A DNA stretch of 64,000 nucleotides from Streptacidiphilus albus JL83 (GTDB lineage: Bacteria; Actinomycetota; Actinomycetes; Streptomycetales; Streptomycetaceae): positions 5,218,017 through 5,282,016 of the forward strand of contig NZ_JQML01000001.1 of assembly GCF_000744705.1 (NCBI RefSeq), read 5' to 3'. A model generated the notes under the pieces. The model did no database searches, had not been told where the DNA came from, and saw only the letters and a list, made by a program, of their open reading frames with translations. This document shows, piece by piece, positions 19,813 to 63,796 of the stretch. Both the position numbers and the translations under genes were made by a program. The number at the start of each line of letters is the position of its first letter. Position 1 is the stretch's first letter.

Positions 19813-19855
19813 CGCCGAGGGCCGCCCCAGCGCGGTGCTGGGGCGGCCCTCGGCG
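19813..19855 (-). terminator. 19-bp stem terminator after acsA
   Basis: A perfect 19-bp stem (19813-19831 with 19837-19855) with a 5-base loop lies 32 bp after the acsA stop codon. It is one of the strongest hairpins in the window and probably isolates acsA from nhaA. Confidence 0.85.
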
Positions 19856-61264: not shown

Positions 61265-62860
61265 ATGAGCAGGTTGCGGCAGGCGGCCACAGCGGCGTTG
61301 GTGGTCACGGGTCTGGCGTTGAGCGGGTGCAGCTCCGCCGGTACCGGTCCGTCCGCGGCCGGTAAGGGATCGGTGGGCGCGAGCGGCACCAGCAGTTCGC
61401 CGACCTCCGGCGACGCCGCCACCGCCCCGGTCCTCCAGCCCCTGGCCGCGTCCATCCCGGCCGACCTCCAGCGGTACTACGCGCAGAAGTTGAGCTGGAC
61501 CCCGTGCGACAGCGGCTTCCAGTGCGCCACGATGAAGGTGCCGCTGGACTACGCGAACCCGTCCGGCGGTGACATCACCCTCGGCCTCGCCCGCAGTCCT
61601 GCGGCCGGGCACGGCTACAAGCGGCTCGGCTCGCTGCTGATCAACCCGGGCGGCCCCGGCGGCTCGGCCGTCCAGTACGCCGAGTACGCCGCCGAGACCT
61701 ACCCGGTGCCGGTCCGGGACTCCTACGACTTCGTCGGCCTCGACCCGCGCGGCGTCGGCCGCAGCACCCCGGTGACCTGTCTCAGCAACCAGCAGATGGA
61801 CGCCTACACCGCAGTCGACTCGACCCCGACCACCCCGGCCGAGGTCGACAAGCTGGTCGCGGCGGACAAGGCCTTCGCCCAGGGTTGCGAGCGGCTCTCC
61901 GGCAAGCTGCTGGACCACGTCAGCACCGTCGACGCCGCCCGTGACATGGACGTGGCCCGGGCCCTGCTCGGCGACGCCAAGCTGAACTACCTGGGCAAGT
62001 CCTACGGGACCTTCCTCGGCGCCACCTACGCCGGCCTGTTCCCGAGCCGGGTCGGGCACATGGTGCTGGACGGCGCGATGAACCCCTCGCTCACCTCGCT
62101 GGAGCTGAACAGCCAGCAGGCGGGGGGCTTCGAGACGGCGTTCAACGCCTTCGCCCGCGACTGCGTCAGCCGCAGCGGCTGCCCGCTCGGCAGCACCGTG
62201 GCACAGGCCGACAGCAACCTGGACACCCTCTTCGCCTCGCTCGACGCCAAGCCGCTGCCGACCGGGCAGTCCCGGACGCTGGACGAGTCGCTGGGCATGA
62301 CCGGTGTGATCGCCGCCATGTACGACCAGCAGCAGTGGCCGCAGCTGCGCACCGCGCTGACCCAGGCCGAGAGCGGCGACGGCTCCGGCCTGCTGGCCCT
62401 GTCCGACCAGTACTACGAGCGCGACGCCACGGGCCACTACAGCAACCTGATGTACGCCAACGCGGCCGTGGACTGCCTGGACCTGCCGGGCGCCGCGAGC
62501 GATCCGCAGCAGGTCCAGCAGCAGCTGCCCGGCTACCTCCAGTCCTCGGCCCAGTTCGGCGCCTCGCTCGCCTGGTCCGGCCTGAGCTGCGCCTACTGGC
62601 CGGTCAAGGCGACCGGCGAGCCGCACACCATCCCGGCGAAGGGCGCCGGACCGATCCTGGTGGTCGGCACCACCCGCGACCCGGCCACCCCCTACGCCTG
62701 GGCGCAGGCGCTCGCGGCGCAGCTGGACTCCGGCACGCTGCTGACCTACAACGGCGACGGGCACACCGCGTACTCGCGCGGCAGCCAGTGCATCGACTCG
62801 GACGTCAACACCTACCTGCTCACCGACAGTCCCCCGGCCGCAGGAACCGTCTGCCAGTAG
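61265..62860 (+). CDS. tripeptidyl aminopeptidase-like lipoprotein
   Basis: The product has 531 residues. A signal peptide ends in the lipobox ALSGC (Cys22). The alpha/beta hydrolase domain has NPGGPGGSAVQYA (oxyanion hole), YLGKSYGTFLG with the nucleophile serine, TTRDPATPY with the acid and GDGHTAYSRG with the histidine. This matches Streptomyces tripeptidyl aminopeptidases (SlpD/SlpE and Tap group), which clip peptides outside the cell. Cysteines FQCATM, VDCLDL and SQCIDS could form disulfides. The ATG is preceded by GGGAGAA. Confidence 0.93.
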   Translation: MSRLRQAATAALVVTGLALSGCSSAGTGPSAAGKGSVGASGTSSSPTSGDAATAPVLQPLAASIPADLQRYYAQKLSWTPCDSGFQCATMKVPLDYANPSGGDITLGLARSPAAGHGYKRLGSLLINPGGPGGSAVQYAEYAAETYPVPVRDSYDFVGLDPRGVGRSTPVTCLSNQQMDAYTAVDSTPTTPAEVDKLVAADKAFAQGCERLSGKLLDHVSTVDAARDMDVARALLGDAKLNYLGKSYGTFLGATYAGLFPSRVGHMVLDGAMNPSLTSLELNSQQAGGFETAFNAFARDCVSRSGCPLGSTVAQADSNLDTLFASLDAKPLPTGQSRTLDESLGMTGVIAAMYDQQQWPQLRTALTQAESGDGSGLLALSDQYYERDATGHYSNLMYANAAVDCLDLPGAASDPQQVQQQLPGYLQSSAQFGASLAWSGLSCAYWPVKATGEPHTIPAKGAGPILVVGTTRDPATPYAWAQALAAQLDSGTLLTYNGDGHTAYSRGSQCIDSDVNTYLLTDSPPAAGTVCQ

Positions 62861-62910
62861 CCGTCGGCCGACGCTCCCCGGCAAACGGGTCCGGTAAGGA
62901 CCGAAATAGT

Positions 62911-62961
62911 GCCACAATCCTTTCGTCATGCCAGTGGTCGGTGCGACGAAAGGATTGTGGC
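62911..62961 (+). promoter_or_regulatory. 17-bp perfect inverted repeat covering the LysE ribosome site
   Basis: GCCACAATCCTTTCGTC (62911-62927) is perfectly complementary to 62945-62961, with a 17-base spacer. The right arm contains AAAGGA, the Shine-Dalgarno sequence, and ends directly before the GTG start. If transcribed from upstream, the mRNA would fold and hide the ribosome site. The same DNA could also be an operator for a dimeric regulator. Confidence 0.75.
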
Positions 62962-63626
62962 GTGTTCGGGGTCATCAACTACGGAACCTATGCGCTGGGC
63001 GCCCTGCTGATCGTGCTGGTCCCTGGGCCGAACTCGATGTACGTGCTGTCCGTCGGCGCCCGCAAGGGCATCCGCACCGGCTTCCGGGCCGCCTGCGGCG
63101 TGTTGGTGGGCGACAGCACGCTGATCGTGCTGACCTCGCTCGGCGCGTCCTCGCTGCTGCGCACCTCCCCGCTGGTCTTCGACGCGGTGAAGCTGCTCGG
63201 CGCGGGCTACCTGCTCTTCCTCGGCTACGGGATGCTGACCTCCGCCCGCAGCCTGTGGCGCGACCGCCACGCCGCGACGGACGCCCCCGACGCCCCGCCG
63301 AGCCCGACCCGGCCGGGGACCGCGAGCGACCGTTCCGCCGGGCCCTGATCGTCAGCCTGCTGAACCCGAAGGCGATCCTCTTCCTGCTCTCCTTCTTCGT
63401 CCAGTTCGTCTCCCCGAGCTACCACGACCCCGCGGTCTCCTTCGCGATCCTCGGCGTGACGCTGCAGTGCTACAGCGTGCTCTACCTCACCACCCTGATC
63501 CTCGCCGGCACCTACCTGGCCAACACCTTCCGCCGCCGTCGCCGCCTCGCCGCGGGCCTCAGCGCCGGTGTGGCCGCCGTCTTCATCGGCTTCGCCGCCA
63601 CCCTGGCCACCGCCTCGGCCGGCTGA
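62962..63626 (+). pseudogene. LysE/RhtB-family amino-acid exporter, frame-broken
   Basis: The frame from the GTG at 62962 gives the N-terminal half of a LysE/LeuE exporter (YALGALLIVLVPGPNSMYVL, GARKGIRTGFRAACGVLVGD, LLGAGYLLFLGYGML), then loses homology and stops at 63348. The next frame encodes the second half (ALIVSLLNPKAILFLLSFFV, LYLTTLILAGTYLANTF) and stops at 63626. A one-base loss in the C-rich stretch near 63284-63335 reunites them. The expected intact product is about 221 residues and six membrane helices. This may be a real null allele or a sequencing error. Confidence 0.8.
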
Positions 63627-63717: not shown

Positions 63718-63791
63718 GCCGCCTTAGCTCAGTTGGCCAGAGCAACGCACTCGTAATGCGTAGGTCTCGGGTTCGAATCCCGAAGGCGGCT
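63718..63791 (+). tRNA. tRNA-Thr (anticodon CGT)
   Basis: The 74-nt cloverleaf has a 7-bp acceptor stem (63718-63724 with 63784-63790) and a U discriminator. The anticodon arm has the loop CTCGTAA with CGT at 63752-63754, and the T arm contains GGTTCGAATCC. CCA is not encoded. It reads the ACG threonine codon. Confidence 0.97.
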
Positions 63792-63796
63792 CACTC

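Follow-up and report, generated by a model that had tools for sequence, protein, structure and literature searches.

Across the 14 Streptacidiphilus genomes compared here, the gene for a LeuE-type amino-acid exporter is preceded by an inverted repeat that is very probably a conserved RNA hairpin burying the Shine-Dalgarno sequence (SD), and the left arm of this hairpin carries an invariant footprint for which a promoter is the simplest account. Taken as a whole, the arrangement may be a promoter-embedded lock against read-through transcripts, a reading whose chances we judge to be evenly balanced.

We analyzed a window of 64,000 nucleotides, positions 5,218,017–5,282,016 of a single 9.9-Mb Streptacidiphilus contig. 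The original prediction had described a perfect 17-bp inverted repeat that includes the SD and extends to the start of the exporter gene, and the sequence bears this out: the arms are 17 nt each, 100% complementary and separated by a 17-nt spacer, with the last base of the right arm at 62961 and the GTG start codon from 62962.

62911–62927, forward strand: left arm, GCCACAATCCTTTCGTC; its CCTTTC (62919–62924) is the anti-SD strand
62945–62961, forward strand: right arm, holding the SD GAAAGGA (62948–62954)

The window has three repeats whose arms are perfect over 17 nt or more and whose loop does not exceed 60 nt, as compared to none in 40 first-order Markov copies; in the other two (at 19813 and 55059) the arms are 89% G+C and the loop is 5–6 nt long. 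The 17-bp repeat before leuE thus exceeds chance. In 464 kb of the source genome (the window and 20 further stretches, each of 20 kb), 25 repeats have arms of 15 nt or more, the leuE repeat included. Among 339 mechanical open reading frame calls in these 464 kb, a list from which leuE itself is absent, one possible start codon is accompanied by such a repeat (arm 15, L152).

The gene behind the repeat had been called a LysE exporter. The family assignment stands, as both halves of the gene match the LysE Pfam model, and we refine the subgroup to LeuE, the best NCBIfam match for both halves; the gene is, moreover, frameshifted here. Two intact orthologs score 268.4 and 277.9 bits against the LeuE leucine efflux model (NF008201, cut-off 165), and the two halves in the window score 137.5 and 137.2 bits, each under the cut-off. 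The frame changes between about 63280 and 63350, in a C-rich linker, which is either a genuine mutation or a fault of the assembly. An ortholog is present in 14/14 genus genomes, the window's included, and the other 13 are in one frame from start region to end, except for a disturbed start region in one (G013). A search of solved structures with the exporter gave 0 matches at E 0.01.

61283–62860 (start provisional), forward strand: gene upstream of leuE, encoding a TAP-like alpha/beta hydrolase and closed by the stop codon TAG at 62858; read-through transcripts are presumed to come from it
62962–63348, forward strand: 5' part of leuE, from the GTG to a premature stop past the frameshift; N-terminal half of the LysE/LeuE protein
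63303–63626, forward strand: 3' part of leuE, in another frame; C-terminal half
63718–63792, forward strand: tRNA-Thr (CGT), downstream neighbor

The tRNA-Thr gene follows leuE in the orthologous loci inspected, the window's own row beginning only at the premature stop. With the hydrolase upstream and the tRNA downstream, the earlier remark that no regulator gene is adjacent holds for the neighbors seen. No terminator-like site was found between the hydrolase gene and leuE in 62700–63100.

We folded and aligned the leaders of the 14 genus genomes, which form two clades of seven species each, and found that the hairpin recurs with compensatory changes, the comparison among orthologs for which the original prediction had called. 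In the 14-row alignment, 84.1% of 208 cells are paired, and the covariation score is 0.303 as compared to 0.089–0.160 for slid partners; neither value is reached by any of 500 shuffles, though the clades share ancestry and the cells are not independent events. Changes on both sides are seen in 7/15 pairs, a number reached by 39/500 shuffles, and the number of further pair types is reached by 11/500. The double changes include C-G at columns 15/82 in G011, G012 and G013, G-C at 17/80 in the window and C-G at 18/79 in G002; judged by eye on a protein tree whose clade-1 forks are partly weak, they fall in different lineages. G-U pairs account for 22 of 175 paired cells. In 12/14 leaders CCTTYC is paired directly to the purine-rich stretch ahead of the start codon; pairing has decayed in the remaining two, of which G010 has a short, weak stem and G003 forms a different hairpin instead. 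The spacing between CCTTYC and its partner is 23 nt for six species of clade 1, and 12, 27, 29, 32, 34, 37, 40 and 63 nt for the rest of the 14. Predicted leader stability (−29.2 kcal/mol in the window) is matched by 0 or 1 of 300 shuffles in 10/14 genomes, and is unexceptional in the other four (116/300 shuffles as low in G010, 57/300 in G001, 24/300 in G009 and 16/300 in G008).

The prediction that the ribosome site lies within the stem agrees with folding, in which the SD is buried in any transcript that carries both arms. In such leaders the mean predicted probability of an unpaired SD is 0.044 (13/14 scored; G003 has no SD by the rule used), as compared to 0.36 in the 16 best non-genus orthologs (Kitasatospora-type, all from g14, the genus of Kitasatospora sp. 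SUK 42) and 0.37 in the 55 scored of 80 named loci, at least one Streptacidiphilus locus (L054) among them. When the RNA is made to begin at offset 9, inside the left arm, predicted SD exposure rises from 0.00 to 0.87 in the window and from 0.00–0.26 to 0.33–0.91 across the 14 genomes, a rise present in 14/14 that we treat as a consistency check because truncated RNA folds less anyway. The AAGGA of G002 and G004 lies 13 nt before the ATG, which is far for an SD.

The two arms have diverged in different ways: the right arm mostly covaries, with two invariant columns, while the left arm stays constant. With the alignment anchored on the ATCC block, GTMAGGA-N13-ACRATCCTTYC is found in 14/14 leaders, comprising 16 invariant columns at fixed spacing (GT.AGGA...A, then AC.ATCCTT.C), and none of the columns from −60 to −23 is invariant (best 12/14). 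The left block is kept even in G010 and G003 despite their decayed pairing. This footprint indicates that the left arm carries information beyond pairing, and a promoter is the simplest account of what that information may be.

62894–62900, forward strand: Box 1, GTAAGGA (GTMAGGA in 14/14), columns −22 to −16; candidate −35-like element or activator site
62910–62918, forward strand: TG-N-CACAAT, candidate extended −10 with its hexamer at 62913–62918; an alternative −10 is AATCCT at 62916–62921
62925–62928, forward strand: predicted leuE start region, about 7 nt past either candidate −10 (offset 9–12) and beyond CCTTTC

Several features bear on this reading: firstly, [CG]ACRAT is present in 14/14 leaders; secondly, in clade 1 it takes the form [CG]ACAAT (CACAAT in the window) and is preceded by TGN in 7/7, as in an extended −10; thirdly, clade 2 has an upstream TTGTCA in 7/7, placed 15 nt from [CG]ACGAT or 18 nt from GATCCT. 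Excerpts of two papers give the Streptomyces −10 as TANNNT and the −35 as NTGACC or TGAC (PMC4895711, PMC6742748), and in an excerpt of the latter S. lividans starts favor A at +1 and T at +2 (PMC6742748). The AT at offsets 9–10 agrees with this start preference. The fit to the boxes is partial, in that the initial T of TANNNT is absent from the −10-like box, the −35-like part is poor in clade 1, and two −10 registers are possible in the left arm. A scan for promoters of the E. coli type found none.

The exact core GTMAGGA-N13-ACRATCC occurs once per genome, at leuE, in 14/14 genus genomes (0 for the backward control pattern), and a regulon was rejected on the grounds that it occurs nowhere else in them. 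Separately, many species (L027–L029, L031–L037) have a box resembling GTAAGGA or GCAGGAG ahead of the promoter-like TGTGTA[GA]ACT of the tRNA-Thr gene as well, which could mean that Box 1 is part of a promoter.

From the hairpin and the footprint we infer a promoter, a start site, read-through transcription and gating of translation by transcript origin. The left arm would do two jobs: as DNA, it would be leuE's own promoter, made up of Box 1 and the −10-like [CG]ACRAT; as RNA, its CCTTYC would be the anti-SD strand. Transcripts arriving from the upstream hydrolase gene would contain both arms, fold into the 15- to 18-bp hairpin and yield no exporter, while transcripts from the gene's own promoter would start at about 62925–62928, lack CCTTTC and with it most of the left arm, expose the SD and be translated. 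Synthesis of the exporter would then require the gene's own promoter to be on, and probably only messages begun there are translated. The original prediction took a transcription start inside the hairpin as a sign against it; such a start may be what the gene's own promoter uses. It would not remove the structure, whose function would then most likely be exerted on read-through transcripts.

A comparable device is described in phage T4. Excerpts of two accounts (PMC3014915, PMC2988022) report that the ribosome-binding sites of gene e and I-TevI are buried in early transcripts, whereas late transcripts, whose start is within the hairpin or immediately ahead of it, are translated, and that in relatives of these genes (soc, segB, Aeh1 mobE) the late promoter lies within the strand encoding the 5' side of the hairpin. 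The leuE element resembles gene e and I-TevI in the predicted sequestration of its SD in long transcripts (SD unpaired 0.044, with covariation), and its layout matches the T4 arrangement, as those excerpts give it, step by step as far as can be judged from sequence; it would operate as the T4 device does if transcription starts where predicted, and, since its promoter and transcripts are deduced in the same way, this likeness does not establish membership in the T4 class. Unlike the T4 examples, the leuE element sits in a bacterial chromosome before an amino-acid exporter, and its putative promoter is of housekeeping rather than phage late type. Titles and abstract openings of the literature on bacterial read-through and sequestered SDs contain no account of the leuE element, and titles and abstracts on start sites in Streptacidiphilus offer nothing relevant.

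If transcription instead began before the left arm, the hairpin would be present in all leuE mRNA, to be opened by a helicase, small RNA or protein, and GTMAGGA would act in the RNA or belong to a promoter further up. We consider such purely translational control unlikely. It is compatible with the covariation, which needs just both arms in some RNA, and it can draw on the surroundings of Box 1, whose AGGA is complementary to the TCCT of the left arm and which in clade 2 lies within a second strong hairpin, whose stem reaches 16 bp and whose loop contains CAGGA (L031–L036). Across the seven clade-2 sequences, in an alignment whose G001 row is out of register with a 4-nt insertion, 80.0% of the cells of this second stem are paired (43–57% when slid) and 3/15 pairs are changed on both sides; its covariation score is reached by 3/500 shuffles and two other measures by 64/500 and 107/500. 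The second stem is weak or missing in clade 1, yet GTMAGGA stays there; the clade-2 geometry appears to leave no linker for an AGGA/TCCT pseudoknot; and in G011 the stop codon of the hydrolase gene falls inside Box 1, so that a promoter further up would lie within coding sequence. The second stem could itself be a terminator of the upstream gene, an extra barrier to read-through, an operator or part of the RNA.

It is also conceivable, and quite improbable, that the pairing is a by-product, with the promoter and the SD alone under selection and a −10/start region rich in pyrimidines matching the SD by coincidence. Conservation of the left block in G010 and G003 where pairing has decayed is what such a history would leave; pairing over 15–18 bp is not, nor are two-sided changes at pairs well clear of the SD core (columns 17–24 with 73–80).

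The original prediction also offered a large operator for an Lrp- or LysR-type regulator. E. coli leuE (yeaS) encodes a member of the same protein family, NCBIfam LeuE, and is regulated by Lrp. As half-sites for a repressor or activator of leuE, the arms would form a perfect dyad in the window, with the left block overlapping the −10-like box. Among the 14 species, arm spacing nevertheless varies between 12 and 63 nt, where half-sites would call for a fixed distance, departures from perfect pairing are often G-U pairs, and the right arm is not conserved in sequence. Retained G-U pairs and a varying loop length favor RNA over a DNA operator; an operator built from the two arms is thus not borne out, and we regard it as very improbable. 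Box 1 alone may be an operator.

Still less credence can be given to a metabolite riboswitch, thermosensor or leader-peptide attenuator, suggested by SD sequestration ahead of an amino-acid exporter and by a clade-1 TAAGGA before an NTG that could open a short frame: no Rfam family reaches its gathering score except tRNA, the match on the hairpin is to a plant-type microRNA model (23.2 of 98 bits), there is no conserved RNA of aptamer size, the loop is not conserved, and the predicted −29.2 kcal/mol appears too stable for a thermosensor. The element shares its anti-SD/SD hairpin with translational riboswitches and thermosensors but has no aptamer, conserved loop or Rfam match, and a literature search for leuE with riboswitches found none. 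The upstream stop codon in G011, 18 nt before the left-arm ATCC block, leaves no room for an aptamer there. Since the loop varies in both length and sequence, the amino-acid-responsive switch first proposed is not supported, and it is scarcely probable that the leuE leader RNA senses amino acids. A leader peptide was rejected, as the NTG frame is shut at once in G013 (GTG TGA), the codon is CTG in G011, and no leucine run is present.

We return to the element of the proposed read-through lock, hairpin and footprint together, and its distribution. A model (R1) built from the 14 genus genomes, which it matches by construction, had no match in 42 loci of other relatives; over 111 family genomes it gave, beyond the 14, two weak matches (E about 0.02) before an unrelated gene. 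When A is set at −12 of the core pattern and a single mismatch is tolerated, matches occur in 159/394 family genomes, and among the matches listed at least two exact ones are from outside the genus (G136, G170). Streptacidiphilus sp. ASG 303 (L119) has an exporter 54% identical, with the same hydrolase and tRNA neighbors; its leader has no footprint and no significant hairpin (93/300 shuffles as low), and shows TGGCACAAT followed by the pyrimidine stretch TTCCCTGG before leuE (L119, 1450–1500). The element thus characterizes the 14 sampled genomes, not every strain that bears the name Streptacidiphilus.

Related sequences were seen elsewhere. In G018 and G051, from another genus of the Streptomycetaceae (L210, about 1705–1785, and L211), GATCCTTTCGTCGG and, further on, CGGCGACGAGGGG lie ahead of another gene, and a TACATT box is placed between these arms; to go by these motifs, the arrangement is possibly a second design with a promoter inside a lock. 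Some Kitasatospora-type orthologs (L039, L044, L045) have a TACCAT −10-like box enclosed by an inverted repeat of 9–10 bp (GAAGGGGCTG / CAGCCCCTTC), with the SD outside, and a GTCAGGAGTG-like sequence further upstream of leuE.

If the read-through lock is real, a bacterial chromosome would be using a phage T4 device to prevent read-through RNA from yielding an amino-acid exporter. The broader proposal, somewhat less secure than the lock itself, is of a chromosomal, genus-wide gating of translation by transcript origin, in which the core promoter would encode the anti-SD strand, promoter and lock would co-evolve and the gene would ignore read-through RNA. Compact, terminator-poor actinobacterial genomes may use locks of this kind as a general form of insulation. 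Such locks would have a searchable signature, namely a promoter whose −10/start strand complements an SD just downstream, in genomes poor in termination, and they would carry a warning that RNA-seq coverage across such genes does not equate to protein.
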